NCBI RefSeq assembly: GCF_000177635.2
Contig: NC_014836.1
Span: 1,035,501-1,099,500 of the forward strand
Direction of reading: 5' to 3'
Source of the DNA: Desulfurispirillum indicum S5
Lineage (GTDB): Bacteria; Chrysiogenota; Chrysiogenetes; Chrysiogenales; Chrysiogenaceae
DNA: 64,000 nucleotides
Shown here: positions 3,631-60,788 of the stretch, piece by piece
How the letters are laid out: each line of letters starts with the position of its first letter
How positions within the stretch are numbered: position 1 is the first letter of the stretch
Program-made: the position numbers and the translations under genes
Notes under the pieces: model-generated
The model's database searches: none
Told to the model about the DNA's origin: nothing
Seen by the model: the letters and a program-made list of their open reading frames with translations, nothing else

Positions 3631-3653
3631 ACTCTTTGATATTACTGCCGTTT

Positions 3654-4424
3654 CGCATCCCCGAAACGGCAGGTTGTCAGCGCTGACCCTGATGTCACGC
3701 TGCAATGGACGAAATGGTTCTACACAGACTGCGTCGCTTGACATTATCCTCACCATATATACGAGTTTCTTTTGCCACTTTTTAACCGCAAAAAGTGGCG
3801 CAAAAGCGGCCCCCAGTGCTGTCCTTTTCAGCCGTCCGCTTGCCTGGAACTGGGGACCGCAAACAACCGCCCTCCGTGGCTTTTGGTTTGCGGTTGCCGC
3901 CCTCGTGGTGGCAACCCTGCGGGTCCATAGCGTTCCAGTCTTCGCGTCCTGGCTGGGCCAGCACACGGGGAAGATGCAGAAGCAGGCCGTTCCCCCCTGA
4001 GCCCGTCCGGTAAGTGCGACGCCTGGCTGGCAAGACCCGAACGGACCACTCACAGGAAGTGAGTGGTCCGGCAGCACTGCAGGGAGGCAGGGGTCAGGCA
4101 ACGCAAAGAGACCCAGGTGCAAGGCGCGGGCAAAGCGAGGAGTGAGGCGTACTCCCTGTACGTCGCAGTGACGAGCGATGACCGGCAACGCAGCAGATGG
4201 GGCTCTTTGGGCAGCCTGCTGCCGGATCTCCAGAACAGGCGAGCAGGCGATCCGGAAAAACGGGCGTTCGGGGGGCGCGTTTTTGTGCCCTTTTTGCGCG
4301 GTCAAAAAGGACAATATCCGGAAACAAAAAGCGGAATACCAGATACGTCAAGCATTCAAAATCAATACGGTTTCCGTGAGATAAACGCCAGTACAATAAC
4401 AGCGTAACTCAAGACAACAAGGTG
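3654..4424 (-). repeat. Dispersed element A, copy A2 (full length, carries B)
   Basis: This is a nearly complete inverted copy. From the left it has a short TTTCG/CGAAA hairpin, the module ending in GACATTATCCTCACC, the GCCACTTTTT-type hairpin (about 3774-3800), the GGTTTGCGGTTGCCGCC body, a nested B element (4095-4218), and the CCTTTTTG / CAAAAAGG hairpin (about 4300-4312). A tail of about 100 bp follows that also occurs beside copies A4 and A7. No gene lies between the reductase terminator and the interrupted lipoprotein gene. Confidence 0.85.
4095..4218 (+). repeat. Element B, copy B6 (nested in A2)
   Basis: A 124-bp element bounded by CAGGCAACG... and ...GGCAGCCTG, with the core GTGCAAGGCGC, the palindrome CGTACTCCCTGTACG and AACGCAGCAGATG. 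It sits at the same site of A as in A5 and A7. Confidence 0.85.
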
Positions 4425-10400: not shown

Positions 10401-10876
10401 GATTGCAGAAAGAGATCCACCGATGGTCGCGGCCCTACGGAGTGGGCGCCAGGCAGGTGCAGCTGAATGCGATTTTTGCGCAGAGTAATATCGTGATTGG
10501 GAGGGGTGATGTAGATTCTGCCCTGGGAGAGTCGCTCGCCATGGCCAGCTTCGCTGACTTCAATGGTGCTGTCCTTGCCGAGCAGAGACACAAGCATGGT
10601 TCTGTAGGTCGGACTGAGATGCTGGACGATGACATAGGCGATGGGAGCCTGGGGAGGAAGATGGGCGACAAATAACTTCAGCGCTTCAAGGCCACCAGCA
10701 CTGGCTCCAACACCAACGACTATGAGGGTACTCTTCCCGGATTTCCTGGCGCCTGCTGACCGTTCCACACTCACCTCTTGCGGCGTGGACGCGCACTGAG
10801 CCGCGTCGCTGACATTCCCCTGTGAATAACAGGCATCAGTCAGGTTATACGCCACTTTCCGGAATGCTGCAACCAT
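7424..10876 (-). CDS. CheB-CheR-PAS-histidine kinase fusion
   Basis: A sensor protein of about 1150 residues in the cytoplasm. In order it has a CheB methylesterase domain (about residues 50-235, catalytic S in GASAGG, H in VQHLSP, D in GTGSDGS), a CheR methyltransferase domain (about 250-500, SAM site VPGCSTGEEAY), a linker, and a coiled coil of heptads of the type NEELQSS (about 700-790). A PAS domain (about 800-900), HisKA (H near 934 in SHELRTPL) and HATPase with GGSGLGLS close the protein. The frame opens with TTG at 10888; I prefer the ATG at 10876, although no strong ribosome site is seen. No chemotaxis genes flank it. A paralogue is at 37244-41089. Confidence 0.92.
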   Translation of the reverse strand: MVAAFRKVAYNLTDACYSQGNVSDAAQCASTPQEVSVERSAGARKSGKSTLIVVGVGASAGGLEALKLFVAHLPPQAPIAYVIVQHLSPTYRTMLVSLLGKDSTIEVSEAGHGERLSQGRIYITPPNHDITLRKNRIQLHLPGAHSVGPRPSVDLFLQSLAQEFGNHAIGVILSGTGSDGSVGVRAIKAGGGITIAQQPDTAKYDGMPTNAIATGHIDIILPPEAIGQELVEIFRISGEVALPPRSRKAPSDMEQIFQQLLQHSGVDFTHYKLSTINRRLERRMAALKISSLGSYVKHLAQCEGEQEKLFRDMLISVTSFFRDSQAFAALEDVMADLLKKQAPGAPIRVWVPGCSTGEEAYSIAMVICNILGGDHRKSQVQIFATDIDQDALVIARRGHYAHVQLAAMDGDMVNRYFISRGASLEVSKTIREMVVFSRHDIIKDPPFLRMNLVSCRNLLVSLNQPLQRKTLALFSYALNPSGVLFTGKSESLSAFDDLFEPLDRENNIYRRIHGARVAPYGRLMAGALLQQQTRPQPPERTAQSLEDHVKDAVMRSMMHKWLLLDHDLNIVHVQGDVSHYISIRHGDFSGNILGMLRKELRNDLRLAMSRVRKSQHPFSGRTTLLPLSQAEAISMRIKVIPVLRENHWQYLLWFDEDEGIVSRHEVANLPGDGNELDAELVREMQDELISVREHLQTVIEELETSNEELQSLNEELQSSNEELQASNEELETTNEELQSTHAELKAIHNEKERHRLQLLEKTRELEKSRSIISRNRMRLSMAQRIAQVGGWEMEPASMQLHLTREHQELLGMVTKGDTLTLELDEYIRKHIHPDDWSRYRSHMQAAARQASQVDYHGELEYRALRCDKQMIHLHDHVIGFRDSSAALPSIFGATRDISRHKETEIMLLESRNRSELANRVKSQFMANMSHELRTPLNAIIGYSEMLQEEYRSDPQGQIYQDMERVQKAGRQLLQIINDILDMADLESQTAQLQAESFDICSEARQVAQSVQAAIHKNGNTLDVRCDENIGTMYSDRQKIRQVLIHLLNNAGRFTENGQVALTVSAEQRHSEPWVLLRVRDTGIGIDPSIHEQIFEPFTLGDSSSTRLYGGSGLGLSISRRFCEMMGGAITLQSETGKGAEFTVALPLNLP

Positions 10877-10953
10877 CGAAAAATACAAGCTCTGTCGTCA
10901 TGGCAGGGGAAATTCCCGAAAGCGCGTGAGAAAGAACCGGCAAACGTCAATGT

Positions 10954-22363: not shown

Positions 22364-22650
22364 TCACTTTCGCACCTCCGAAACGGCAGTTTTTTGGCGC
22401 CGACCCTGATGCCATGCAGTAATGGTGAAAATGGCTCTGCACAGACTGCGTCTCTTGACATTGCCCTCACCTTGTTTATGAGTTTCTTTTGCCACTTTTT
22501 CCCCGCAAAAAGTGGCTGGGAAGCGGCCCCAGTGCTGTCCTTTTCAGCCATCCGCTTGCCTGGAACTGGGGACCGCAAACAACCACCCTCCGTGGCTTTG
22601 GGTTTGCGGTTGCCGCCCTCGTGGCGTCAACCCTGCGGGTCCATAGCGTT
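22364..22650 (-). repeat. Element A, copy A3 (partial)
   Basis: It begins three bases after the repressor stop. It holds the TTTCG/CGAAA end, the conserved 100-bp module ending CATTGCCCTCACC, the GCCACTTTTT / AAAAAGTGGC hairpin and the GGTTTGCGGTTGCCGCC body. It breaks off at CATAGCGTT, where element B2 begins, so the other half of A is missing. Confidence 0.82.
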
Positions 22651-23227: not shown

Positions 23228-23351
23228 CAGGCAATTAAAAAGTTCTCAGGTGCAAGGCGCGGGCAAAGCGAGGAGCGAGGCGTACTCCCTGTACGTCGCA
23301 GTGACGAGCGATGCCCGGCAACGCAGCAGATGGGGCTCTTTGAGCAGCCTG
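23228..23351 (+). repeat. Element B, copy B3 (joined to A4)
   Basis: A B copy from CAGGCAATTAAAAAG to TTGAGCAGCCTG. It continues without a gap into the outer part of element A copy A4, like the B-A junction in A2. Confidence 0.86.
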
Positions 23352-23429
23352 CTGTCGGATCTCCAGAACAGGCGAGCAGGCGAGCCGGATAAACGGGCGT
23401 TCGGGGGGCACGTTTTTGGGTCCTTTTTG
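23352..23429 (-). repeat. Element A, copy A4, left part (5' exon side of intron)
   Basis: The outer end of element A (GATCTCCAGAACAGGCGAGC ... CGTTCGGGGGG ... TCCTTTTTG). It is interrupted in the terminal hairpin by a group II intron remnant and resumes at 24681. Confidence 0.8.
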
Positions 23430-23447: not shown

Positions 23448-23852
23448 TTATCCATAAATTACGCCGATTTTCCTGTATGTGATTATGGCTGCCGCAAGAC
23501 ACGTCAACCCGTAGTGAGTGACCTCAAGCTTCTCAAAGCGCACATGAATCTTCCTGAAACGGTTGAACCAGGAAATAGATGCTTCCACTATCCAGCGCCT
23601 CGCCTTCTTTGATGGGTCACGCTTCTTGTCCTCGATCTCTTCTTTTCGCTGCTTTACATGGGGTATGTATCCGCGCTGAAGAATGCTGCTGAGCGCCTGC
23701 TTTCCCTTGTAGCCACAATCTGCGCAAAGATGCTGCTCCTGCTCTGCAGGCTTCTCGAAGACTACGCCATCAAGAACAGCTTCAAGCTGGCTCACATCAT
23801 GCCGGTTCGCTCCGGTTACGACGATGGACAACGGGACGCCACGACCGTCCAC
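23448..23852 (-). CDS. IS5-family transposase, second frame
   Basis: The C-terminal half of the transposase: VDGRGVPLSIVVTGANRHD carries the second catalytic aspartate, and RWIVEASISWFNRFRKI carries the glutamate in the usual WxVExxxSWxNRFR context. The overlap with the first frame is about 55 bp. The listed ATG is probably not used on its own; a frameshifted fusion is expected from the family (inference). Confidence 0.85.
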   Translation of the reverse strand: MDGRGVPLSIVVTGANRHDVSQLEAVLDGVVFEKPAEQEQHLCADCGYKGKQALSSILQRGYIPHVKQRKEEIEDKKRDPSKKARRWIVEASISWFNRFRKIHVRFEKLEVTHYGLTCLAAAIITYRKIGVIYG

Positions 23853-24285
23853 CAGGACATGACGCTTGCTCCCGTTTTTTTCCCCGATCCGTCGGGTTCT
23901 TCCCTACGGTTTCAAGAGCCATTGGTGCTTTGTACATTCCGCCATCTATGCTTTGCCACTCCCAGGCAATTCCCTCCATCTCGTCATACTCAGCCAGCCC
24001 TTGACGCCAAATAGCTTCGAATACACCGGCCTTACTCCACTCAATGAAGTACTTGTGCACGGCACTGGCGCAACCAAACTGCTCCTTGGGTATGGCTTTC
24101 CACTGGCAACCGGTGCGCAGCACATAGACAATGCCGGAAAACGCCATTCTGGGGTCAAGTCGCTTCCGTCCGCCACCAGGCTTGCGTTTGTAGGTCTTGT
24201 CAGGATCTCTTTGCTGGATTGGCAGCAAAGGCTCAACTCTTTGCCAGAAAGCATCTGAGACTTCCCATGATTGCACTTTAGACAT
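23797..24285 (-). CDS. IS5-family transposase, first frame
   Basis: The N-terminal part of an IS5-family transposase: DUF4096-type region (FWQRVEPLLP, GGGRKRLDPRMAFSGI, TGCQWKAIPKEQFG), then WQSIDGG holding the first catalytic aspartate. The matching frame ends near NPTDRGK; the remaining 30 or so residues are out of frame. Many relatives join the two frames by programmed frameshifting around this position, so the element may be active. The second frame is at 23448-23852. Confidence 0.85.
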   Translation of the reverse strand: MSKVQSWEVSDAFWQRVEPLLPIQQRDPDKTYKRKPGGGRKRLDPRMAFSGIVYVLRTGCQWKAIPKEQFGCASAVHKYFIEWSKAGVFEAIWRQGLAEYDEMEGIAWEWQSIDGGMYKAPMALETVGKNPTDRGKKREQASCPGGRSWRPVVHRRNRSEPA

Positions 24286-24884: not shown

Positions 24885-26053
24885 ACATTACAGACAGGAG
24901 GAATTTTTCGCGATCTGTATCTTATGAATACGACACCCTTCAACGCCTTATTCAGGCCTGGAATTACTATGGTCTTGAAAACTGGAATTATGATGCCAAT
25001 GGTAATCGTACTTACTCTCGTAGTGACAATGGCAGCAGTAACTGTCACGTGGATGCGGCCAGTAATCACCTGAAAAGCATCAGTGGAAATGATACAAGAA
25101 GTTTCACGTACGACGTTCTTGGTGGTGTCATTTCTCAAAGTTGAGCAGGTGGCAACCTAACATATGCTTATGGTCACTTCAACCGCAAGCAGAGTGTCAT
25201 CACTCCACAAGGCACTACCACCTACACCTACAATGCCCTGAACCAGCGCGTGCGCAAAAGTGGAGCCGGTGGCAGTGTCAACTACATTTACTCGCCAAAT
25301 GGCGCATTGCTGGGCGAGACGTCGGCCAACGGCACAGCACTCACCACCCAGTATATCTGGCTGCACGGCCAGCCCATCGGCCTGATCAAGGGCAGTACAC
25401 TCTCCTTCATCCATAACGACCACCTGGGCCGGCCCGAAGTGGTGACCAACAACGGCAAAGCCGTGGTCTGGCAAGCAGACAACCAGGCCTTTGACCGCAC
25501 GGTGCAGATTGACCAGATCGGCGGGCTGAATCTGGGCTTTCCAGGGCAGTACTACGATCAGGAAAGCGGACTATGGTACAACTGGCACCGTTACTACGAT
25601 GCCACCACTGGAAGATATACCCAGAGTGACCCGATTGGGTTGGCGGGTGGGTTGAATACGTATGGGTACGCTCTTCAGAATCCTTTGAACTATGTTGATC
25701 CGATGGGGTTGCAGGTACTTATCTGCAATCGCAAAGTAGACGGATTTCCCTTTTTTGGCAACCATGCCTACATGTGGGACACCACGACAAATACGGCTGA
25801 AGGGATGCGGGGAAGTTTTGGGAGTGGAAAAATTTCTAATGAGAGGGGACGCTCTGGTGGTGATTTCTGCAATGAAGGAGAAGGCAGTGTGGGTAAAGAG
25901 GAAGAGATCATGAGATTTATGCGACAAAACCAGAACAATGGACTTTGGTTTCCCTTTATCAATGACTGTCATAGTGCCGTTCAAGCTGTTGTATTAAACT
26001 TCGAGTTAATATATCCCGGTGCACCAGGTGGCAGATTAGGGGCAATACCTTGA
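24885..26053 (+). pseudogene. Rhs protein, 3' fragment with C-terminal toxin-like domain
   Basis: The 3' end of an rhs gene. YD-repeat-like sequence (SVSYEYDTLQRLI, NYDANGNRTYSR) leads into an in-frame TGA at 25142-25144, then into the core [25 protein letters not shown], the hallmark [17 protein letters not shown] and [14 protein letters not shown] ... DPMGL. The about 115 residues after DPMGL form the variable tip, with GNHAYMWD and NDCHSAV. A His before a Cys suggests a permuted papain-like fold (inference). The 5' part is missing, apparently replaced by repeat A4. A 268-codon ORF starts after the stop, but an isolated product is unlikely to be delivered. Confidence 0.82.
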
Positions 26054-26120
26054 AGAATATAAGAATAAAATTCATCAAGTTAAAATTGCAATTCTTATTG
26101 TAGTATTCAGTTTTTGTATT

Positions 26121-26669
26121 GTGAGTATCGCTATGGTTAGTGATTATAATGAGCTGGAGTATTATGCAAAAATAATAGAAGATAGTATGCCGGATTCTTG
26201 GCGATTAATAAAAAAAATAACTGGTGTTATTCCTTATGGGCACTATGATGGTTTGGAGTATGATGGATCTAAGGGGATATTACTTTTACTGGAAGGAGAT
26301 ATTGATGTCATTTTTCATTGGAAGGATAAAAATGAAGTTTGGCATCGTGAAGCACTTGCTAAAGAGTCTCTAGAGATTTGGATTATGCCACCAGAATACC
26401 GATTGAGCTGGAAACGCTTTTTTGTAATGAAAAGTCTTGTGCCAGCCAAAGAAGTTTACTCTGATGAAAAGATAAGGGTGTATGGCTATACTTCTCACCA
26501 TATCGAATCTCTTAAAGAATTTAATGAAATAGCCTCATCATTTCCCTCAATAACAACAGGTTGGCCAGATTCGCCTTATCATACTGGGGTTTTGTCTTGG
26601 GTAACTTGGAAAGAGGATATAAATCTGATAATGCGAGAGGCATTACCACCTACATCTACAATGCCCTGA
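26121..26669 (+). CDS. Unknown protein, candidate Rhs immunity
   Basis: A 182-residue AT-rich gene directly downstream of the Rhs toxin tip, the usual immunity position. The reading frame continues upstream from the GTG through a hydrophobic stretch (KIAILIVVFSFCIVSIAMV), so the real product may begin earlier with a membrane helix; no ATG, GTG or TTG is in frame there. Acidic, with many W and Y. Its last residues run into a duplicated piece of Rhs core DNA (26640-26703), so the natural C-terminus may be lost. No family recognised. Confidence 0.5.
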   Translation: MSIAMVSDYNELEYYAKIIEDSMPDSWRLIKKITGVIPYGHYDGLEYDGSKGILLLLEGDIDVIFHWKDKNEVWHREALAKESLEIWIMPPEYRLSWKRFFVMKSLVPAKEVYSDEKIRVYGYTSHHIESLKEFNEIASSFPSITTGWPDSPYHTGVLSWVTWKEDINLIMREALPPTSTMP

Positions 26670-26703
26670 ACCAGCGCGTGCGTAAGAGTGGAGCCTGTGG
26701 CAG
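26640..26703 (+). repeat. Displaced copy of Rhs core DNA
   Basis: About 63 bp nearly identical to 25213-25276 in the Rhs gene, encoding [16 protein letters not shown] in another frame than the overlapping 26121-26669 gene. It is a scar of recombination between Rhs tips. Confidence 0.8.
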
Positions 26704-26748
26704 TACTCTTAATGATCCGTTGATAAGTATAGAAATTGGGTGGTAAGC

Positions 26749-27291
26749 ATGCGTTCTTTGTTTCGGATAATTGCGATACTCATGTTTGTATGTATTGTGC
26801 CTGTGTATTCTATGGCAAGCTTTGTATTTCAGGAGGAAGGCCGTTATGCCTCTCCGAGAGAAATATGTGTTGTGCAGTTAAAAATATCTCCGAAAGGGGG
26901 TTTTTCCCAATTATTTATTGAAGACCATGTTGGTGGATTGGTGCATGTTGCAGATGATGTTACAGGGTTTTTATGGTTAGATGGAGGCTCCTTGATTTTT
27001 TCGTCGAGCCCAATTTATGGAAAACCTGGGGTATTTGAGTTGATATGTAGCTATGACGATCTTACTTTGATAACGCTTATGGCATCAGAAAATATATATT
27101 CAGCTTATCCAGATGGTGCAGACTACTTTGAGTTAAAGGAGATCGTTGATGGTAAGTTGTGGTTTTATTATGGGGCAGATGTTGAGACCATTGATTTTAA
27201 TAATTTTCGCATAGAAGCTAATCTAAGGTGGTTAATGCTTAGCGAATCATGTTGGAAAAAGCGTCAAGGCGATAAATGCAATTTCAGATAA
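26749..27291 (+). CDS. Exported unknown protein, possible orphan immunity
   Basis: A 180-residue AT-rich gene. The N-terminus MRSLFRIIAILMFVCIVPVYSMA is a signal peptide, so the product is probably periplasmic. The rest is beta-rich with no known motif. It lies in the Rhs-associated zone after a displaced Rhs fragment, which is typical of orphan toxin/immunity cassettes. The frame also opens one ATG earlier at 26740. Function unknown; the immunity role is inferred from position only. Confidence 0.5.
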   Translation: MRSLFRIIAILMFVCIVPVYSMASFVFQEEGRYASPREICVVQLKISPKGGFSQLFIEDHVGGLVHVADDVTGFLWLDGGSLIFSSSPIYGKPGVFELICSYDDLTLITLMASENIYSAYPDGADYFELKEIVDGKLWFYYGADVETIDFNNFRIEANLRWLMLSESCWKKRQGDKCNFR

Positions 27292-27326
27292 TATGATGAG
27301 TGATGGTGCTGGAGTGATTAACGTAA

Positions 27327-27470
27327 CAATTGGAGGGTGGCGGCAATGATAAAATAATTTTCGATATTTATTTTGATTGTATTTGCCTTACTGCCCATCC
27401 TGACTGTTGCCAGCAAGTGTGGGATATTCTTCAACCTAATGAAGCAGGCAACATTGTGGTGAATCGCTAA
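27327..27470 (+). pseudogene. Orphan toxin-like C-terminal remnant
   Basis: A 47-codon open stretch without its own start, after an in-frame TAA. It reads about LEGGGNDKIIFDIYFD, then CICLTAHPDCCQQVWDIL and QPNEAGNIVVNR before the stop. Its TAA overlaps the ATG of the next lipoprotein gene (TAATG). A protein-like, Cys-rich C-terminus fused by overlap to a small secreted protein gene suggests the tail of an Rhs-type toxin tip with its immunity gene; this is inference. Confidence 0.4.
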
Positions 27471-27943
27471 TGAAAAAGAATTATTTATTATTCTATTTAT
27501 TCGTTGTGATTAGTTTGTATGGCTGCGTGTATGTGGATGGCAAGACGCCGTCTAATCTTCAATATCTGGGGCAAAATTTTGACCAGATATACATGGACGA
27601 TTATAAGTTATTCTGGAGGATCTTGCATGATGCAGCTAGCCGTGCACGCACCTGCCTGGACGTTAGTCAAACAACAGAATTTATCGGGTTGGCAAAGACG
27701 ATGAGAGGAAATGCTGAGTTTAATGAGTTCCTCAGTGAAGAAATAGAAATGCTTGCCATAGATCAAACTGAGTGCTTTCTTTCTGCATGGCACAATGCCG
27801 ATGAGCCAACCCAGGCAGGTGTATTGCGAAAGCTTAAATCACCTCTGTTTATCGAACCCACAGCTCTGTTTAAGGCTTTTAGGCCATTTGCTCATGGTAA
27901 ATATGGTGAGATGGTAAGGTATTACTTGGAAGCGGTACCGTAA
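27470..27943 (+). CDS. Small lipoprotein, candidate immunity protein
   Basis: A 157-residue protein with a lipoprotein signal (MKKNYLLFYLFVVISLYGC; lipobox LYGC). The mature part is helical and moderately acidic with no recognised domain. The start codon overlaps the stop of the remnant at 27327-27470. Lipoprotein immunity proteins are known for some Rhs and contact-dependent systems, so a protective role is plausible, but nothing in the sequence proves it. AT-rich compared with the flanking housekeeping genes. Confidence 0.5.
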   Translation: MKKNYLLFYLFVVISLYGCVYVDGKTPSNLQYLGQNFDQIYMDDYKLFWRILHDAASRARTCLDVSQTTEFIGLAKTMRGNAEFNEFLSEEIEMLAIDQTECFLSAWHNADEPTQAGVLRKLKSPLFIEPTALFKAFRPFAHGKYGEMVRYYLEAVP

Positions 27944-37243: not shown

Positions 37244-40200
37244 GTGGAGCAACCGGCCAAGGGGATCTATATTGTTGGTATTGGGGCCAGTGCCGGTGGT
37301 CTGGAAGCACTGCGTGCCCTGACTTCTCACCTGCCTGCCGATGGCGATATCGCCTATATCATTGCTCAACACCTCAGCCCCAGCCACCGCAGCATGCTGG
37401 TGTCCCTGCTGGCCAAGGAGTGCCTGCTGCCGGTACTGGAAGCTGTTGATGGAGCTGCCGTTGAAGCGGGACATATCTATATCACCCCTCCCAACTATGA
37501 TATCACCCTGACCGCCGATGAGAAAATCCGCCTGCGCCAGCCGGCGCAACCTATGGGCCCCAAGCCTTCGGTGGATACCCTGCTGTGCTCCCTGGCCGAA
37601 GTGAAAAAAGAGAAGGCCATCGCCATTATTCTTTCCGGCACCGGCTCCGATGGCTCGGTGGGCGTGCGTGCCATCAAGGCCGAGGGGGGCATCGTCATTG
37701 CCCAGGAACCTTCGACCGCCAAGTATGACAGCATGCCGAACGCGGCAATTTCCACTACCCATGTTGATCTGGTTTTGCCGCCGGAGCGCATCGGGCAGGA
37801 AGTTCCCGAAATATTCCGCTTTCCGGAAAAATTCCTGGTGGAAAAGCAGATCAAAAAGGCACCAGGGAATATTGACCGTATCTTCCGCATCCTCACCGAG
37901 CGTGGTGAGGTGGACTTTTCCGGCTACAAACTCACCACGTTGAACCGGCGCATTGAACGGCGTATGGCGGCCACACGGGTTACCAACCTCGGGGACTACG
38001 TCAGCCTGCTGGAAGAATCTGCCGACGAGTGGAAGCTGCTCTTCAAGGACATTCTCATCAGTGTGACGGCTTTTTTCCGCGACAGGGAGTCCTTTAACTC
38101 CCTGGAAAAGGCTCTGGAAAGCCTGGTGGCGAACAAACGCAATGGTGACAGTATCCGCGTGTGGGTGCCCGGCTGCGCCACCGGCGAAGAGGCCTACACC
38201 CTGGCCGTTATGCTGTGGGAGATCGTGCACCGCATGGGGAAAAAGTGCCATATGCAGATCTTTGCCACGGATATTGATACCGACGCACTGATGCACGCCC
38301 GCAAGGGGCTCTACTCCCAGGCACTACTGGAGGGCATGGAGCCGGCTTTGCTGGAGAAGTACTTTACCCGCAAAGGCTCCAGCTTTGAAGTTGCCAAATT
38401 CCTGCGGGAGATGATCGTCTTTTCCCGTCACAACCTCATTAAAGATCCCCCCTTCCTGCGTATCGACCTGATCAGTTGCCGCAACCTCCTGATCTACTTT
38501 ACTCAGCCACTGCAGAAGAAGGTGTTCTCGCTGTTCCACTACTCTCTGGCCCCCAAGGGCATCCTGTTTCTGGGGAAATCGGAATCCATCGGGGACAACG
38601 AAACGCTCTTTGCCTCTTTCCACGACAAAGCCAAAATTTACGAACGCAAAGGGGGGGTGAAGTCTCCCATCGTCAGCGGAAACGGCAACTATGCTCTGCT
38701 GCGTCGCAGTGCGACACCGGCACCCAAGCCGGCCAAAGAGTACCGCCTGGAAGATGCTCTGGCGCAGACGTGCCTGAAGCTTTTCTCCAAGTGCAGCATT
38801 GTGGTTGACTGCGAGTACAGCATCATCCATGTGCGAGGCGATGCTTCAAACTTCCTGACCCTGCCCAGTGGTGACTTCAGCGGCAATGCCCTGAAAATGC
38901 TGCCCCGTGAGCTGGGTATTGATCTGCGCGCTGCTGTTGGCAGGCTCTCTTCGGGCGATGTACCTCTTTTTCGGGGGAATCTGCATAAAATCCAGACGGG
39001 CAGCACCTGGAGCTACGTGCGCATTCTCGCGTCGCGGGTGGAGCACGAAGGTGAAGCGGTGGGGTACTTTCTCATTGTGCTGGAGGAAGAGGATAATGCC
39101 TTTGCCCTGCAGCATTGTCCTGTCGAAAGTGTCAGTGAAGACGGACATGTCCAGATACAGGAGCTGCAGCACGAGCTGATTTCCAGCAAGGAGCATCTGC
39201 AGACGGTAATTGAGGAGCTTGAAACCTCCAATGAGGAACTGCAGTCACTGAACGAAGAGCTGCAGTCGGCCAATGAGGAATTGCAGTCTTCCAACGAGGA
39301 GCTTGAGACCACCAACGAAGAGCTGCAGTCCACAAACGAGGAACTCAGTTCCGCCTATGCCGAACTGAAAGTAGTCTACGACGAGAAGGAAAGCCAGCGC
39401 CTCGAGCTGGTGAACAAGACCCATGAGCTCCAGGAATCCCAGCAGGTGCTGGAGGTTCGACAGAACTTCATTACCGGCATTATGCAGACAAGCCCGGTGG
39501 GCATACTGCGCATCGACCGCGATCGCAAAATAGACTTTATCAATGCCTATGCTGAAAAGCTGCTCGGCTTCGCGGAACACTCCCTGCTGGGGAACAGCTA
39601 CCACGTGGTGGAATCGTTGCTCAAAAGCCTTGATGCAAAAAAACTCACCGCTGAGCAAAAACCCCTGGCCTGCGCCCTGAAAAACAAACGAACCCTGCAT
39701 AATCTGGAATACGCGGTCAGCGCGTTGACTGATGTGGCGCGCACGCTGTCCATCAGCATCACGCCGAACTTCTCTCCGGGGGGGATCTTTGAGAGTGCGG
39801 TGCTGGCACTGGTGGATATCACCGAGAAAAAGCGGATTGAAAGAGAGCTCAAACAGAAACAGACCGAGCTGGAATTCATCAACCATAATCTGGAGAAACG
39901 CGTCAACGAGGAAGTGCAGCGACGCATGAATCGGGAAACGCTCATCAACGCCATCTACGACGAAGCCAATGTGGCTATTGGTATTACCGATACCAAAGCC
40001 CGCATTATTCACGCCAACAAAGCTTTCTGTACCACTTTTGGCTACACCTATGACGAGATCATCGGCCAGTCTTTCCTGGTACTGGTGCCGCCAAATCGCC
40101 AGCAGGCCTATCGACAGAAGCACCGCTCCCTGATGGAGAGCCAGGATCAGGATCGCGCTGTGGAGCGGGTCATGCGCCACAGGAACGGCGCCACGCTGGA

Positions 40201-41089
40201 GGTGCTCGTCAGCCGCAAAGCCATTATCACCGAAGACAGCACACCGGCGCTCCTGAGTATCATTACCGATATCACCTCCATGAAGCGCATCCAGCGAGAA
40301 AAGGAGCAGCAGGAGAAAATACTGATCCAGCAGACTAAAATGGCTGCCATGGGCGAAATGGTCAGTGCCATCGCGCACCAGTGGCGGCAGCCGCTGAATG
40401 TGGTGGGCATGCTGGTGCAGGATATCCGCGACTCCTATCGCTACGGAATGCTGGATCAGGGCTCCCTTGACGTGAAAGTGCAGCGCACCATGGAGACCAT
40501 CCGCTTCATGTCCGACACCATTGACGACTTTCGCAACTTCTTCATCCCCGATAAGGAAAAGGAGCGTTTTGACGTCATGGAAAGCCTGCGGCAGGTGGCA
40601 CACATGCTCTCCAGTCAGATGCGCTCCCACAATGTGGTTCTCTATCGTCAGCACGTGCGCAGCGGAAAGTGTGTTCCCCTGCTGGAAGACAAGAGCAGGA
40701 GCAGCGCTCCGTACCTGGTCACCGGATACCCCAATGAATTTAAGCAGGTGCTGTTTAACCTGCTCAATAACTCCCGCGATGCCATTATGCAGCATCGGCT
40801 GGACCACGATGGACAGCCCCAGGATGGCAGCATTCATGTCAGTATCAGTCGTCAGGGTCGAGGCAGGCTGATCATCAGGATCGTCGATAACGGGGGCGGT
40901 ATCGACCCGGAAGTCTTGCCGCGCATTTTTGAACCGTACTTTACCACCAAGGACCAGACGAAAGGCTCAGGCATTACCGGAACCGGAATCGGCCTCTATA
41001 TGGCGAAAATCATTGTCCAGGATAACATGGGTGGAAAGATCAGCGCGCGAAGTATTGATGGTGGGGCAGAATTTACCATTGAACTTTAG
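37244..41089 (+). CDS. CheB-CheR-PAS-PAS-histidine kinase fusion
   Basis: A 1281-residue sensor with GTG start and GGGAGG upstream. Domains: CheB (about 8-195; GASAGG, AQHLSP, GTGSDGS), CheR (about 205-460; VPGCATGEEAY), a linker, and a coiled coil of heptads (about 640-730). Two PAS domains (about 745-865 and 905-1025), a HisKA-type helix pair (H in SAIAHQWRQPL, about 1045) and HATPase (about 1160-1281, GTGIGLYMAK) follow. A single-receiver regulator follows 49 bp later, its likely phosphorylation partner. It is paralogous to 7424-10876, but the kinase halves differ in type. Confidence 0.93.
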   Translation: MEQPAKGIYIVGIGASAGGLEALRALTSHLPADGDIAYIIAQHLSPSHRSMLVSLLAKECLLPVLEAVDGAAVEAGHIYITPPNYDITLTADEKIRLRQPAQPMGPKPSVDTLLCSLAEVKKEKAIAIILSGTGSDGSVGVRAIKAEGGIVIAQEPSTAKYDSMPNAAISTTHVDLVLPPERIGQEVPEIFRFPEKFLVEKQIKKAPGNIDRIFRILTERGEVDFSGYKLTTLNRRIERRMAATRVTNLGDYVSLLEESADEWKLLFKDILISVTAFFRDRESFNSLEKALESLVANKRNGDSIRVWVPGCATGEEAYTLAVMLWEIVHRMGKKCHMQIFATDIDTDALMHARKGLYSQALLEGMEPALLEKYFTRKGSSFEVAKFLREMIVFSRHNLIKDPPFLRIDLISCRNLLIYFTQPLQKKVFSLFHYSLAPKGILFLGKSESIGDNETLFASFHDKAKIYERKGGVKSPIVSGNGNYALLRRSATPAPKPAKEYRLEDALAQTCLKLFSKCSIVVDCEYSIIHVRGDASNFLTLPSGDFSGNALKMLPRELGIDLRAAVGRLSSGDVPLFRGNLHKIQTGSTWSYVRILASRVEHEGEAVGYFLIVLEEEDNAFALQHCPVESVSEDGHVQIQELQHELISSKEHLQTVIEELETSNEELQSLNEELQSANEELQSSNEELETTNEELQSTNEELSSAYAELKVVYDEKESQRLELVNKTHELQESQQVLEVRQNFITGIMQTSPVGILRIDRDRKIDFINAYAEKLLGFAEHSLLGNSYHVVESLLKSLDAKKLTAEQKPLACALKNKRTLHNLEYAVSALTDVARTLSISITPNFSPGGIFESAVLALVDITEKKRIERELKQKQTELEFINHNLEKRVNEEVQRRMNRETLINAIYDEANVAIGITDTKARIIHANKAFCTTFGYTYDEIIGQSFLVLVPPNRQQAYRQKHRSLMESQDQDRAVERVMRHRNGATLEVLVSRKAIITEDSTPALLSIITDITSMKRIQREKEQQEKILIQQTKMAAMGEMVSAIAHQWRQPLNVVGMLVQDIRDSYRYGMLDQGSLDVKVQRTMETIRFMSDTIDDFRNFFIPDKEKERFDVMESLRQVAHMLSSQMRSHNVVLYRQHVRSGKCVPLLEDKSRSSAPYLVTGYPNEFKQVLFNLLNNSRDAIMQHRLDHDGQPQDGSIHVSISRQGRGRLIIRIVDNGGGIDPEVLPRIFEPYFTTKDQTKGSGITGTGIGLYMAKIIVQDNMGGKISARSIDGGAEFTIEL

Positions 41090-52860: not shown

Positions 52861-53118
52861 CAAGGCCCAAAGTCCAAGGTGAAAGTCACGCCGTGACGGT
52901 GCCATCGGGTAACCTCAGTTCAGCCTGAAGAACACTCCCCAGAAAGAACTTCCGCTGCGGGAAAAGTTTTCCGCAATGATCTGCTAATGAAAGTAGGGGT
53001 AAGTAACATGATTGTGTCACTTAAATACCCTGGTAAATATATTGCATGAGGACAGATTTATGTAGTGCGGTTCTCTGGCAACTCTTGAACGTGACCAGGA
53101 AAATAAAGGAGATGAGAA

Positions 53119-53661
53119 ATGAGAGCAATGGTACTTGCACTGTTGTTGTGCGGATTGATGATGCTTCCCCTGGCGGCGCTGGCAGAAAGTCCATCGATCC
53201 CTGCGGAAAGCAAGCTGATTCCCATGGAAGAGCTGGAATTCCAACTGCTGCAGGAATTTCCTGCCCAGGCATCAGAATCTGGCGGTGATGTGGGCATCAT
53301 GGCCACGGGTTCGTGGGGAGCCCAGACGGTTGGCCCGACTATCTACACTACGGGATATCCGTATTATGGCCCTGTTTTTTCTGCGCCTGCCTCAACACCC
53401 AGCAATGCGGCAACCAGAACTATTTACTGGGATTGGAACGTGTTGAACTACCGCTCGGATCTTAAGGTATGGCTGTGTAACGTTACTTGGGATGCATGTG
53501 ATGAAGTGTCTCATTCGAGTATTGGAGGAACAAATGTGTTCCATGGACTTTCTGCCACCCATAACTACCAGTTTGTTTTTGGCATCCCCGGCAATGGTAG
53601 TGCTATTTACCCCTACGTATATGGCCAGCAGAACTCCATTATCGTGAACTGGGAAAACTGA
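53119..53661 (+). CDS. Secreted protein upstream of the tandem array
   Basis: A 180-residue exported protein. The signal peptide MRAMVLALLLCGLMMLPLAALA is clear, with AAATAAAGGAG upstream of the ATG. The mature part has an acidic start (MEELEFQLLQEFPAQ), then a Tyr/Pro/Gly/Trp-rich beta-type region with two cysteines (WLCNVTWDAC) that may form a disulfide. No family recognised. The stop lies 15 bp before the first array gene, and its last codons (NWEN) are part of the duplicated DNA of the array, so it belongs to the same operon. Confidence 0.7.
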   Translation: MRAMVLALLLCGLMMLPLAALAESPSIPAESKLIPMEELEFQLLQEFPAQASESGGDVGIMATGSWGAQTVGPTIYTTGYPYYGPVFSAPASTPSNAATRTIYWDWNVLNYRSDLKVWLCNVTWDACDEVSHSSIGGTNVFHGLSATHNYQFVFGIPGNGSAIYPYVYGQQNSIIVNWEN

Positions 53662-53678
53662 CGAGGAGGAGAATAGCC

Positions 53679-54422
53679 GTGTTCAGTACATCCATCACCC
53701 AGGGAGTCAACCCCTACTCACAGGTGCAGAAGAATACGACGGTGCGTGCGGATCAATCTCAAGCGTACCATAGAACAGCTCAAACGAGAGTCGCCGCGCA
53801 GACCGACGCTGTAGTCCTCAGCGAGGAAGCCAGGCAGCTGTATGGAGAATTGGTACCAGGCGAGAAGGCGGAGCAAGGCGAGCAGGACGACCCCAGAATT
53901 CCACCCATACATCTCTGGGAAAACCTCGTCAATGATCCTGATTACGCTGAGGAAATGGCCAGGAATGCTGCCTATATTCCCGATGGCTTGATGCTCAGGA
54001 TTAACCCGGATGCAGCGAAGATGGGTGAACGAGTGCTCTTGGATGATCTCTTTCTTTACCTCGATGGCACCCCTGTCACCTTCAGCGATGGCAGTTACGA
54101 GGAATACCGGGATGCCTTTTACCGTGAATCTGCAATCGTGAATCAACAGCGCATTGATCTTTACGAAGAGGCAAAACGCAATGGGGTTTCCGGGGCAGAT
54201 CTGTATCGGGTGATTCACGAGTTCAACTTCAGTCTGCCTGAATCCTATCTGGAAAAATCCGGTCGCGTTTTTCAGCGGGAAATATTGTTCGCGCGGGCTG
54301 AAGGCGCTTCTACGAGTGACGAAATTTACCAGATGATTCACTCCAGTGAGGCAGAATCCTATCTTGAAAAAAATAACGAGGCAAATCAGAGGGAAACGGC
54401 CTTTGCCCGGGCCGGCAACTGA
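53679..54422 (+). CDS. Tandem paralogue 1 (constant-variable-constant protein)
   Basis: A 247-residue protein, the first of four tandem paralogues. Constant N-terminus MFSTSITQGVNPYSQVQK followed by AVVLSEEARQLYGELVPGE. The middle WENLVNDP...YAEEMA leads into a variable stretch (about 90-130). A conserved LDGTPVTFSDGSYEEY and SGADLYRVIHEFNFSLP lead to an internally duplicated tail (ESYLEK...RE..FARA twice). GTG start behind GAGGAGG. No signal peptide or known domain. The DxxxLSEEA motif recalls short N-terminal leaders of some flagellar and secreted proteins, but this is weak. Confidence 0.75.
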   Translation: MFSTSITQGVNPYSQVQKNTTVRADQSQAYHRTAQTRVAAQTDAVVLSEEARQLYGELVPGEKAEQGEQDDPRIPPIHLWENLVNDPDYAEEMARNAAYIPDGLMLRINPDAAKMGERVLLDDLFLYLDGTPVTFSDGSYEEYRDAFYRESAIVNQQRIDLYEEAKRNGVSGADLYRVIHEFNFSLPESYLEKSGRVFQREILFARAEGASTSDEIYQMIHSSEAESYLEKNNEANQRETAFARAGN

Positions 54423-54429
54423 TGTTTCT

Positions 54430-54461
54430 GCCCTCGCACTTCTTTTTCGGGGTGCGAGGGC
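54430..54461 (+). terminator. Intergenic hairpin of array (after paralogue 1)
   Basis: Stem GCCCTCGCAC / GTGCGAGGGC with a T-rich loop and no T-run after it; it may be an attenuator or RNA-stabilising hairpin. The same structure follows paralogues 2 and 3. Confidence 0.7.
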
Positions 54462-54504
54462 GCAGTAATTTGAACTGGGAAAACTGACGAGGAGGAGAAT
54501 AGCC

Positions 54505-55245
54505 GTGTTCAGTACATCCATCACCCAGGGAGTCAACCCCTACTCACAGGTGCAGAAGAATACGACGGTGCGCGCGGATCAATCTCAAGCGTACCACGGA
54601 ACAGCTCAAACGAGAGTCGCCACACAGGCAGATACTGTGGACCTCAGCGAGGAAGCCAAGCAGCTGTATGGAGAATTAGTGCCTGGCGAGCAGGACAGCC
54701 CCAGGATCCCACCTATACTTGGCTGGGAGAACCTCGTCAACGACCCGATATATGCTGAGGAGATGGCACACTTCATTGCTTATGAAGTAGATGCACTAAT
54801 GTGGAAGATTAATTCTGATATTGATTTTGGAGTGGATGGCATTCCCTCAGGTGGTATTCCTGCGTATGGTGTTTTGTTGTATCCTGATGGTACTCCAATT
54901 GACTTTAGTGATGGCAGCTACCAGGAATATGCCGATGCGTTTTACCGCGAGTCTGCCATAGTGCGGCAGCAGCGTATTGAAGCTTACGAAGAGGCCAGGC
55001 GCAATGGAGTTTCCGGCGCAGATCTGTATCGGGTGATTCACGAGTTCAACTTCAGTCTGCCTGAATCCTATCTGGAAAAAACCGGTCGCGTTTTTCAGCG
55101 GGAAATATTGTTCGCGCGGGCTGAAGGCGCTTCTACGAGTGACGAAATTTACCAGATGATTCACTCCAGTGAGGCAGAATCCTATCTTGAAAAAAATAAC
55201 GAGGCAAATCAGAGGGAAACGGCCTTTGCACAGGCTGGCAACTGA
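54505..55245 (+). CDS. Tandem paralogue 2
   Basis: A 246-residue paralogue. The first 115 bp and the ribosome-site region before the GTG are almost identical to paralogue 1, as are the last 230 bp with the doubled ESYLEK tail. Between them it differs: a shorter acidic linker (PGEQDSPRIPPIL) and a unique middle (YEVDALMWKINSDIDFGV, then DGIPSGGIPAYG) before YPDGTPIDFSDGSYQEY. Conserved flanks around a divergent centre suggest gene conversion or selection for variety. Unknown function. Confidence 0.75.
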   Translation: MFSTSITQGVNPYSQVQKNTTVRADQSQAYHGTAQTRVATQADTVDLSEEAKQLYGELVPGEQDSPRIPPILGWENLVNDPIYAEEMAHFIAYEVDALMWKINSDIDFGVDGIPSGGIPAYGVLLYPDGTPIDFSDGSYQEYADAFYRESAIVRQQRIEAYEEARRNGVSGADLYRVIHEFNFSLPESYLEKTGRVFQREILFARAEGASTSDEIYQMIHSSEAESYLEKNNEANQRETAFAQAGN

Positions 55246-55252
55246 TGTTTCT

Positions 55253-55284
55253 GCCCCCGCACCTCTTCTTCGGGGTGCGGGGGC
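55253..55284 (+). terminator. Intergenic hairpin of array (after paralogue 2)
   Basis: Stem GCCCCCGCAC / GTGCGGGGGC. Compared with the hairpin after paralogue 1 it has compensating changes that keep pairing (T to C with A to G), which argues for selection on RNA structure. Confidence 0.72.
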
Positions 55285-55327
55285 ACTGTAATTTGAACTG
55301 GGAGAACTGAAAAGGAGGAATGCCACC

Positions 55328-55957
55328 GTGTTCAGTACATCCATCACCCAGGGAGTCAACCCCTACTCACAGGTGCAGAAGAATACGACGGTGCGCGCGG
55401 ATCAATCTCAAGCGTACCACGGAACAGCTCAAACGAGAGTCGCCGCGCAGACCGACGCTGTAGTCCTCAGCGAGGAAGCCAGACGGATGTATGGAGAGTT
55501 GGTGCCTGGCGAGAAGGCGGAGCAAGTAGAGCAGGACAACCCCAGAATTCCACCCATACATCTCTGGGAAAACCTCGTCAATGATCCTGAGTATGCTGAA
55601 GAAATGGCACGTTTCAGCGCTTATCAAATGGATAGACCACTGCTCAGAATGAACCCGGATGCTGTCCAAGTACCCGGCGGAGTCCTCATGGATGGCTCCA
55701 TGCTCTATCCCGATGGCACCCCTGTCACCTTCAGCGATGGCAGTTGGCAGGAATACGAGGATGCCTTTAATCGTGAAGCTGCACTGGTACGAGAACAGCG
55801 CATTAAGGTCTATGAAGAAGCTGTGCGTAACGGAGTTTCCGGCGCAGATCTGTATCGGGTGATTCACGAGTTCAACTTCAGTCTGCCTGAATCCTATCTG
55901 GAAATAACTGGCCGAGCAAATCGGCGGGAAATGCTCTTTGCCCGGGCCGGCAACTGA
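55328..55957 (+). CDS. Tandem paralogue 3
   Basis: A 209-residue paralogue with the same constant N-terminus and GTG start (AAAAGGAGG upstream). The middle resembles paralogue 1 at WENLVNDPEYAEEMA but then diverges (YQMDRPLLRMNPDAVQVPGG). The tail is single (LPESYLEITGRANRREMLFARAGN in one block), so it lacks the internal duplication seen in paralogues 1 and 2. The same hairpin follows. Confidence 0.75.
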   Translation: MFSTSITQGVNPYSQVQKNTTVRADQSQAYHGTAQTRVAAQTDAVVLSEEARRMYGELVPGEKAEQVEQDNPRIPPIHLWENLVNDPEYAEEMARFSAYQMDRPLLRMNPDAVQVPGGVLMDGSMLYPDGTPVTFSDGSWQEYEDAFNREAALVREQRIKVYEEAVRNGVSGADLYRVIHEFNFSLPESYLEITGRANRREMLFARAGN

Positions 55958-55964
55958 TGTTTCT

Positions 55965-55996
55965 GCCCTCGCACTTCTTTTTCGGGGTGCGAGGGC
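55965..55996 (+). terminator. Intergenic hairpin of array (after paralogue 3)
   Basis: Stem GCCCTCGCAC / GTGCGAGGGC, identical to that after paralogue 1. Confidence 0.7.
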
Positions 55997-56039
55997 GCAG
56001 TAATATTAATTGAAAGAACTGAAAAGGAGGAAGCTTACC

Positions 56040-56447
56040 ATGTTCAGTACATCCATTACCCAGGGAGTCAACCCCTACTCACAGGTGCAGAAAAATGCGG
56101 CGGTGCATACCGAACAGGCCCAGACGAATCATGAGCCAACCCAAACAGGTGGAGCTGTGCGAACCGATGCTGTAACCCTCAGCGAGGAGGCCAAGCGCCT
56201 GTATTATGAGGAGTGGGTGCTCCGTGAAGAACCGGAGGATGAAGAGGAGGAGACTGAGGACTCCCTCGATTTGGAATGGGCTAAAGAGGATGAGGATAAA
56301 ACTATTGTAATGGAAACATTCAGGGCGTATGCGTCAGAGGGGATGTTCGCTGAAATGAACCCGGAAGAGATCTCCGTGGAAAATAACCTCATGATGACGG
56401 AGGGCTCCATAATGGAATCCGAGGATATCTCCCCTGAAGTACTGTAA
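56040..56447 (+). CDS. Tandem paralogue 4 (short, acidic)
   Basis: A 135-residue final member that uses ATG instead of GTG, with AAAAGGAGG upstream. The N-terminal module is kept (MFSTSITQGVNPYSQVQK, VTLSEEAKRLYYE), but after it the protein is very acidic (EEPEDEEEETEDSLDLEW) and the constant middle and tail of the others are absent. It keeps an FRAYASEGMFAEMNPEE segment that matches the Y..xxM.xNPdA part of paralogues 1 and 3. Either a degenerate member or a different type sharing the N-terminal module. Confidence 0.7.
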   Translation: MFSTSITQGVNPYSQVQKNAAVHTEQAQTNHEPTQTGGAVRTDAVTLSEEAKRLYYEEWVLREEPEDEEEETEDSLDLEWAKEDEDKTIVMETFRAYASEGMFAEMNPEEISVENNLMMTEGSIMESEDISPEVL

Positions 56448-56479
56448 TGGCCGTTGTCAAGGGTGAAGTTTCGTTCAGG

Positions 56480-56510
56480 CCCCGCACTCCCTTGGAGTGC
56501 GGGGTTTGCT
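56480..56510 (+). terminator. Terminator at end of array
   Basis: Stem CCCCGCACTCC / GGAGTGCGGGG followed by TTTGCT, a likely end of the array operon. Confidence 0.78.
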
Positions 56511-56636
56511 ATGTGAAGAGTCTGTGGAGTTTTTCCCGGATTCTGCGTGATGATTTCCTGAAAGAGTTGCTGGTAGCCGTCCCGGCGCTGATGCGCTATA
56601 CTGGTCGGTAATATGCGAGTTGACAAAGGATAATTC

Positions 56637-58393: not shown

Positions 58394-58397
58394 CTTT

Positions 58398-59068
58398 GTC
58401 CTTTTTGACCGCGCAAAAAGGACGCAAAAACGCGCCCCCCGAACGCCCGTTTATCCGGATCGCCTGCTCGCCTGTTCTGGAGATCCGGCAGCAGGCTGCT
58501 CAAAGAGGCCCATCTGCTGCGTTGCCGGGCATCGCTCGTCGCTGCGACGTACAGGGAGTACGCCTCCCTCCTGCTTTGCCCGCGCCTTGCACCTGGGTCT
58601 CTTTGCGTTGCCTGACCCCTGCCTCTTTGCAGTGCTGCCGGACCACTCACATCCTGTGAGTGTCCCGTTCGGGTCTTGCCAGCCAGGCTTCGCACTCACC
58701 GGACGGGCTCAGGGGGGAACGGCCTGCTTCTGCCTTTCCCCCGTGTGCTGGCCCAGCCAGGACGCGCCGACTGGAACGCTATGGACCCGCAGGGTTGCCG
58801 CCACGAGGGCGGCAACCGCAAACCAAAAGCCATGGAAGGCGGTTGTTTGCGGTCCCCAGTTCCAGGCAAGCGGACGGCTGAAAAGGACAGCACTGGGGGC
58901 CGCTTCCCAGCCACTTTTTGCGGGTAAAAAGTGGCAAAAGAAACTCGTATATATATTGTGAGGATAATGTCAGGTAACGCAGTCTGTGTAGAACCATTTC
59001 GGCCATTGCAGCGTGACATCAGGGTCAGCGCTGACAACCTGTCGTTTCGGGGATGCGAAACTTCAGTT
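58398..59068 (+). repeat. Element A, copy A5 (full length, carries B)
   Basis: Begins with the hairpin GTCCTTTTTG / CAAAAAGGAC (58398-58423), holds a nested B (58492-58614), the GGTTGCCGCC / GGCGGCAACC stem and the GCCACTTTTT hairpin (near 58911-58936), and ends GGGATGCGAAACTTC. A second, truncated copy (A6) follows head to tail with no gap. Confidence 0.88.
58492..58614 (-). repeat. Element B, copy B7 (nested in A5)
   Basis: A 123-bp B copy in the same position of A as in A2 and A7 (after GAGATCCGG), from CAGGCTGCTCAAAGAGG to TTTGCGTTGCCTG. Confidence 0.87.
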
Positions 59069-59300
59069 TGTCCTTTTTGACCGCGCAAAAAGGACGCAAA
59101 AACGCGCCCTTCGACGCCCGTTTATCCGGCTCCTTTGCTCGCCTGCTCTGCCGGACCACTCACTTCCTGTGAGTGTCCCGTTCGGGTCTTGCCAGCCAGG
59201 CTTCGCACTCACCGGACGGGCTCAGGGGGGACTCTCTGCTGTTCCCCCTTGGGCTGGCCCAGCCAGAGCGTGCTTCCTGGCAGTAGCAAGCAAACGGAGA
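59069..59300 (+). repeat. Element A, copy A6 (truncated, no B)
   Basis: Starts with GTCCTTTTTGACCGCGC, lacks B and the second half. It breaks off near CCAGCCAGAGCGTGC before the GST gene. Confidence 0.83.
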
Positions 59301-60035: not shown

Positions 60036-60788
60036 CGTAAAATGTTACCGCTCAATATTGATTTTGAATGCTTGACTTATCTGGTATTTCACTTTTCGTC
60101 TCCGGATATTGTCCTTTTTGACCGCGCAAAAAGGACACAAAAACGCGCCCCCCGAACGCCCGTTTCTCCGGATCGTTGGCTCGCCTGTTCAGGAGATCCG
60201 GCAGCAGGCTGCTCAAAGAGGCCCATCTGCTGCGTTGCCGGGCATCGCTCGTCACTGCGACGTACAGGGAGTACGCCTCGCTTCTCGCTTTACCCGCGCC
60301 TTGCACCTGGGCCTCTTTGCGTTGCCTGACCCCTGCATCCCTGCAGTGCTGCCGGACCACTCACATCCTGTGAGTGTCCCGTTCGGGTCTTGCCAGCCAG
60401 GCGTCGCACTCACCGGACGGGCTCAGGGGGGAACGGCCTGCTTCTGCCTTTCCCCCGTGTGCTGGCCCAGCCAGGACGCGCCGGCTGGAACGCTATGGAC
60501 CCGCAGGGTTGCCGCCACGACGGCGGCAACCGCAAACCCAAAGCCATGGAGGGCGGTTGTTTGCGGTCCCCAGTTCCAGGCAAGAGGACGGCTGATAAGG
60601 ACAGCACTGGGGGCCGCTTTTGCGCCACTTTTTGCGGGTAAAAAGTGGCAAAAGAAACTCATAAACAGGGTGAGGGCAATGCCAAGCGACACAGTCTGTG
60701 CAGAACTATTTCCGCCATTCCAGCATGGCATCAGGGTCGATCCCGACACCCAGCTGTTTCGGGGGTGCGAAACTTCTGTTACCAGCTA
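60036..60788 (+). repeat. Element A, copy A7 (full length, carries B)
   Basis: The most complete copy: tail TCAATATTGATTTTGAATGC, hairpin GTCCTTTTTG / CAAAAAGGAC (near 60107-60132), nested B, body stems, hairpin GCCACTTTTT (near 60624-60650), the end module TGAGGGCAATGCC and the TTTCGGGGGTGCGAAA hairpin. It begins about 17 bp after the GST stop. The long ORFs through it are repeat-derived. Confidence 0.88.
60205..60328 (-). repeat. Element B, copy B8 (nested in A7)
   Basis: A 124-bp B copy, CAGGCTGCTCAAAGAGG to CTTTGCGTTGCCTG, at the same site in A as B6 and B7. Confidence 0.87.

Follow-up and report, generated by a model that had tools for sequence, protein, structure and literature searches.

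What four adjacent genes with constant ends and variable middles do for a bacterium is the question raised by a locus of Desulfurispirillum indicum S5T, a motile, spiral member of the Chrysiogenota that respires arsenate and selenate (PMC3368425). The genome is a single contig of 2,928,377 bp, of which positions 1035501–1099500 form the window analysed here (64,000 nucleotides). An initial sequence-only reading interpreted the build as a possible shared export or binding signal with diversified function, such as an antigen-like, effector or immunity set. As set out below, the array represents a small family of unexplained purpose, not a set of weapons undergoing diversification, and it forms a lineage-specific operon of D. 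indicum in which an FlhE-domain periplasmic protein is followed by four tandem orphan copies.

The four units (u1–u4) are intact open reading frames with good ribosome-binding sites (RBSs), arranged in tandem on the + strand between positions 53679 and 56447 (Table 1). All share a 57-residue N-module, in which MFSTSITQGVNPYSQVQKN and LSEEA do not differ between the units, as originally noticed, and the long C-terminal block attributed to three of them is indeed common to u1–u3 and absent from u4. In protein identity to u1, u2 stands at 82%, u3 at 80% and u4 at 39%, the range among u1–u3 being 76–82%. The C-terminal block is built of a repeat of about 37 residues, Y..IH...ESYLE...RE..FARA, of which u1 and u2 each carry two copies, u3 a single copy and u4 none; the two repeats align with each other with a score of 72, and none of 5000 shuffles scored above 46. 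Tandem Repeats Finder reported no array, owing to its period limit of 500. The centre was first described as differing in each gene, which holds as far as divergence goes, but the middles of u1–u3 can be aligned with one another and that of u4 weakly so, the u4/u3 score being reached by 1 of 3000 shuffles and the u4/u1 score by 52 of 3000. Judged from these alignments, the middles are homologous, not unrelated.

Table 1. Features of the array and its upstream gene (positions in the window)
Feature	Position	Strand	Description
sigma-54-like -24/-12 site	53031-53046	+	TGGTAAATATATTGCA; 88 bp upstream of the flhE-like start; candidate operon promoter
FlhE-domain protein	53119-53661	+	Sec-type signal peptide (MRAMVLALLLCGLMMLPLAALA-E), by inspection
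unit 1 (u1)	53679-54422	+	247 aa: N-module 1-57, linker, middle, two C-terminal repeats
hairpin after u1	54429-54462	+	14-bp stem, no U-tract; -26.3 kcal/mol, z -5.0
unit 2 (u2)	54505-55245	+	246 aa, built like u1
hairpin after u2	55252-55285	+	one two-sided compensatory change (U-A to C-G) when compared with the hairpins after u1 and u3
unit 3 (u3)	55328-55957	+	209 aa, single C-terminal repeat
hairpin after u3	55964-55997	+	stem-loop sequence equal to that after u1
unit 4 (u4)	56040-56447	+	135 aa: diverged N-module, acidic linker, distant middle copy, no C-terminal repeat
terminal hairpin after u4	56480-56504	+	CCCCGCACTCC-CTT-GGAGTGCGGGG followed by TTTGC; end of array

The DNA between the genes records how the array was built. 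Positions 54471–54504 (+), immediately before u2, hold a remnant of the 3' end of the flhE-like gene together with an RBS leader. Because the last 17 bp of that gene and the leader are repeated here, the segment that was duplicated in tandem to give the copies evidently extended from the flhE-like 3' tail to the hairpin. Two long exact identities occur within the array, one of 148 bp and one of 102 bp, the latter matching 53645–53746, spanning the non-coding remnant before u2 and continuing into u2 itself. Between u1 and u2, dS is 0.17 in the N-module and 0.04–0.09 at the C-terminus and is saturated in the middle; where the amino acid is shared, the two genes agree in codon at 92% of positions in the N-module, 95% at the C-terminus and 48–50% in between. 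The longest runs of identical codons reach 68 for u1/u2 and 39 for u2/u3 (p<1e-4 for both in 10,000 permutations), and the run for u1/u3 is not significant by the same permutation. Since the ends match at silent and non-coding sites as well, these patterns demonstrate, at the level of sequence comparison, that the ends have been homogenised by gene conversion rather than kept as a strictly conserved leader.

The middles tell a complementary story. Here dN (about 0.3) lies below dS (1.0 or higher), which indicates that they have drifted apart under purifying selection and are not demonstrably diversifying; for the middle of the u1/u3 pair dN/dS is about 0.3, and in the u1/u2 and u2/u3 comparisons the silent sites of the middle are saturated. 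Thus, the "constant ends, variable middle" pattern is largely one of concerted evolution, and the array resembles known tandem paralog arrays of this kind in its homogenised ends and spacers, divergent middle and purifying selection, differing from them in that its members belong to an orphan family. For an antigen-like, effector or immunity set that diversifies its middle under selection, or for a cassette system reshuffled by recombination, the constant ends, divergent middles and mosaic conversion tracts could be adduced, but dN/dS lies below 1 among u1–u3, the units carry no toxin, effector, immunity, defence or phage domain, and no further cassettes of them are present elsewhere in the D. 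indicum genome. Moreover, an RBS precedes each copy and the set is apparently co-transcribed, so that the array shows no division into silent and expressed cassettes. The silent-site evidence therefore weakens the diversification reading, which finds no support in these data and is considered very improbable. In general terms, constant ends with a variable middle in tandem genes can reflect gene conversion instead of diversifying selection, and it is the silent sites that decide.

The suggestion that no described family has this build has been borne out. No unit matched any entry of Pfam, NCBIfam, PHROG, PADLOC or the PDB, and searches of 51 genomes of the phylum, 385 genomes of a "relatives" set, GTDB contigs, viral contigs, phages and plasmids returned only the array itself. 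One candidate in a genome of the same family, at E=0.58, was rejected, as it is interrupted by stop codons and runs antisense to a gene for a sensor kinase. The units are thus an orphan gene family, confined to a single genome among the collections searched, with an informative neighbour. The locus is flanked by metH on one side and an ABC transporter on the other. The transporter's ATPase gene, 3' of the array, is present in both same-family genomes examined, and the permease gene in one of the two. Next to the ATPase gene in these two genomes the array, the FlhE-like gene and metH are all absent, and hence the exact empty site is not readable.

Other parts of the window have features of their own. 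An intergenic repeat of about 700 bp is dispersed in both orientations, with full copies at 3644–4367, 58396–59068 and 60056–60780 (91–94% identity among them) and fragments at 1713–2028, 22368–22650, 23247–23429 and 59148–59266; peptides of open reading frames similar to those of the repeat also occur at genome positions 2120377–2120811, and the repeat is possibly a non-autonomous mobile element. At 25250–27943, a C-terminal RHS-type fragment is followed by small unrelated open reading frames in a layout resembling polymorphic toxin/immunity tails, with a transposase-like open reading frame nearby (23797–24285). Two large CheB-CheR-PAS-kinase hybrids (7424–10888 and 37244–41089) lie in opposite orientation and share about 64% DNA identity over 1.2 kb.

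Each unit is followed by a similar hairpin, as had been pointed out, and the stem CCYCGCAC...GTGCGRGG has exactly four occurrences across the 2.93-Mb genome, one behind each unit. The predicted structures have energies of -26 to -32 kcal/mol with z of -5 to -6, the region of the terminal hairpin (56470–56515) being assigned -29.4 kcal/mol. In the hairpin after u2, pairing is kept through the two-sided change and two further one-sided changes. The three internal hairpins lack a U-tract, and a role as ordinary intrinsic terminators was rejected for them; rather than terminating strongly, they more likely define mRNA ends or affect stability. Rfam gave sub-threshold snoRNA matches only, which were taken as chance. 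A recent tandem expansion of orphan duplicates, kept alike by gene conversion and having a mild or redundant function in which copy number would matter little or not at all in any specific way, would fit a family found in one genome only among the collections searched, a lower G+C at the locus (50–54%, compared with 62% in metH), the shortened u4 and the ends homogenised at silent sites. Such an expansion is nonetheless doubtful in view of the four intact frames with good RBSs, dN/dS well under 1 across u1–u3 where measurable, and hairpin pairing maintained through compensatory change.

The gene preceding the array had been recognised as encoding a secreted protein, and this proves to be an FlhE-domain protein with a signal peptide by inspection. 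It matches Pfam PF06366 with E=6e-12 (46 bits against a cut-off of 25) and FlhE in PDB 4qxl with E=0.003 over the domain, stays below the NCBIfam equivalog cut-off (40 against 150 bits) and carries an N-terminal extension of about 60 residues. It is the only FlhE found in the 51 phylum genomes and 385 "relatives" genomes, which accordingly offered no other FlhE-like gene with a neighbourhood to compare. In Salmonella, FlhE is a periplasmic chaperone of rod assembly; beyond three gammaproteobacterial orders it occurs sporadically in a dozen phyla, mostly outside flagellar operons and in some cases in genomes without flagellar genes, and outside the gammaproteobacterial flagellar operons it has no clear role (PMC11247099). 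The D. indicum protein is like the FlhE of the flhBAE operon of Salmonella and E. coli in having the PF06366 domain after an apparent Sec-type signal peptide; it differs in its extension, its sub-equivalog score and its location outside an flhBA operon, and also in leading an orphan family, none of which is reported in known flhE operons. The sigma-54-like site upstream of the gene, a consensus match only, agrees at 10 of 12 consensus positions including the GG and GC, and we estimate that about 2–4% would be expected by chance in that intergenic stretch. RpoN is encoded in the genome. A scan that does detect a sigma-28 site at flgM found none at the operon.

Both the array and the FlhE-like gene lie outside any flagellar cluster, far from the flgM-flgK-flgL cluster, and this invites an explanation apart from the flagellum. 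In a non-flagellar envelope operon, the FlhE-domain protein would act in the periplasm in a role unrelated to the flagellum, and the units would be cytoplasmic partners or regulators, with the N-module binding a common partner. The metH and ABC transporter neighbours, the occurrence of FlhE in genomes devoid of flagellar genes and the lack of any Sec signal seen on the units by inspection are all consistent with such an operon. It leaves unexplained, however, the composition of the N-module, rich in S, T, N and Q, poor in acidic residues and similar to that of FlgL and FlgK, and we regard it as possible, if rather unlikely.

This composition, together with predicted disorder and the FlhE-domain neighbour, makes a shared export or binding signal plausible. 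Residues 1–81 are predicted to be disordered (pLDDT about 30) and the C-terminal half to be helical in AlphaFold2 (AF2) models of low overall confidence (mean pLDDT 50–52 for both), and a fold search with one model found no match. Over residues 2–41, the units contain 45–50% S/T/N/Q, the median being 20%, and 2.5–5% acidic residues. Ranked by S/T/N/Q among 143 open reading frames, a set that includes antisense frames, u2 and u3 come first and second, FlgL fourth (0.42) and FlgK eighth (0.35 as called, 0.40 from its likely start). The organism's own FlgM, at 0.275, is not S/T/N/Q-rich, and composition is thus not a clean marker of export; with antisense frames in the ranked set as well, it serves as a lead, not a test. 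The FlgL-like flagellin-N protein beside flgK (genome 2155721–2160250) has 1509 aa, several times the usual FlgL length.

The N-module ends in D-x-V-x-L-S-E-E-A, which resembles the D-x-(V/I)-x-(L/F)-S motif of the FlgM N-terminal export region, and u2 and u4 show weak matches to the N-terminal half of FlgM in TIGR03824 (E 0.014–0.05; 14–16 bits against a cut-off of 40.75). These are sub-threshold, profile–profile comparison of the N-module with FlgM fails (hhalign probability 0.7%), and in a control 1 of 10 shuffled N-modules obtained a lower E-value, to an unrelated family; homology to FlgM is hence not supported. The same weak matches would be the starting point for anti-sigma FlgM-like paralogs that hold back a sigma factor until they are exported, but the sigma-28-binding C-terminal region PF04316 has no match in the units and a normal flgM exists elsewhere in the genome, making such paralogs extremely improbable. 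A precedent for such export comes from Campylobacter, in which non-flagellar proteins such as the Cia proteins and FspA leave through the flagellar pathway by virtue of N-terminal signals (PMC2764114). The analogy would lie in a short N-terminal export tag on otherwise unrelated bodies; D. indicum, by contrast, is a free-living sediment bacterium, and the likeness would be one of working only.

Given these observations, the explanation we tentatively favour, at somewhat below even chances, is that the units are auxiliary substrates of flagellar type III export, with the N-module as signal and the FlhE-like protein as periplasmic partner. The disordered, S/T/N/Q-rich, acid-poor N-module would direct the units into the flagellar pathway, and their helical C-terminal half would do the actual work, either at the flagellum, within it or upon it, or outside the cell. 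From its place in the periplasm, the FlhE-like protein would act on that same structure. A single sigma-54-type promoter before the flhE-like gene would probably drive expression, and the hairpins would probably set mRNA stability between cistrons. What suggests flagellar export is the FlhE domain in front of the array in a motile host with flgM, flgK and flgL, the high S/T/N/Q ranking shared with FlgL and FlgK, the weak FlgM-like matches of two units, the sigma-54-like site with RpoN, and the Campylobacter precedent. It is opposed by the failed FlgM comparison and its shuffle control, the ordinary composition of FlgM itself, the distance from the flagellar cluster in line with FlhE homologs elsewhere, the lack of a sigma-28 site at the operon, and AF2 models that are not confident and yield no fold match. 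Accordingly, of the shared export or binding signal first proposed, the signal remains plausible, while the strictly conserved leader has given way to gene conversion.

A fuller version of flagellar export, predicted as an unlikely case, would be a set with one constant export leader and four bodies differing in C-terminal repeat number, expressed together with an FlhE-type periplasmic protein of its own; the set would be an accessory of the flagellum in a spiral Chrysiogenota bacterium and would give FlhE a non-enterobacterial role. An operon that consists of an FlhE-domain protein followed only by an orphan family resembling export-tagged proteins would give a direct handle on what FlhE does outside the gammaproteobacterial flagellar operons.
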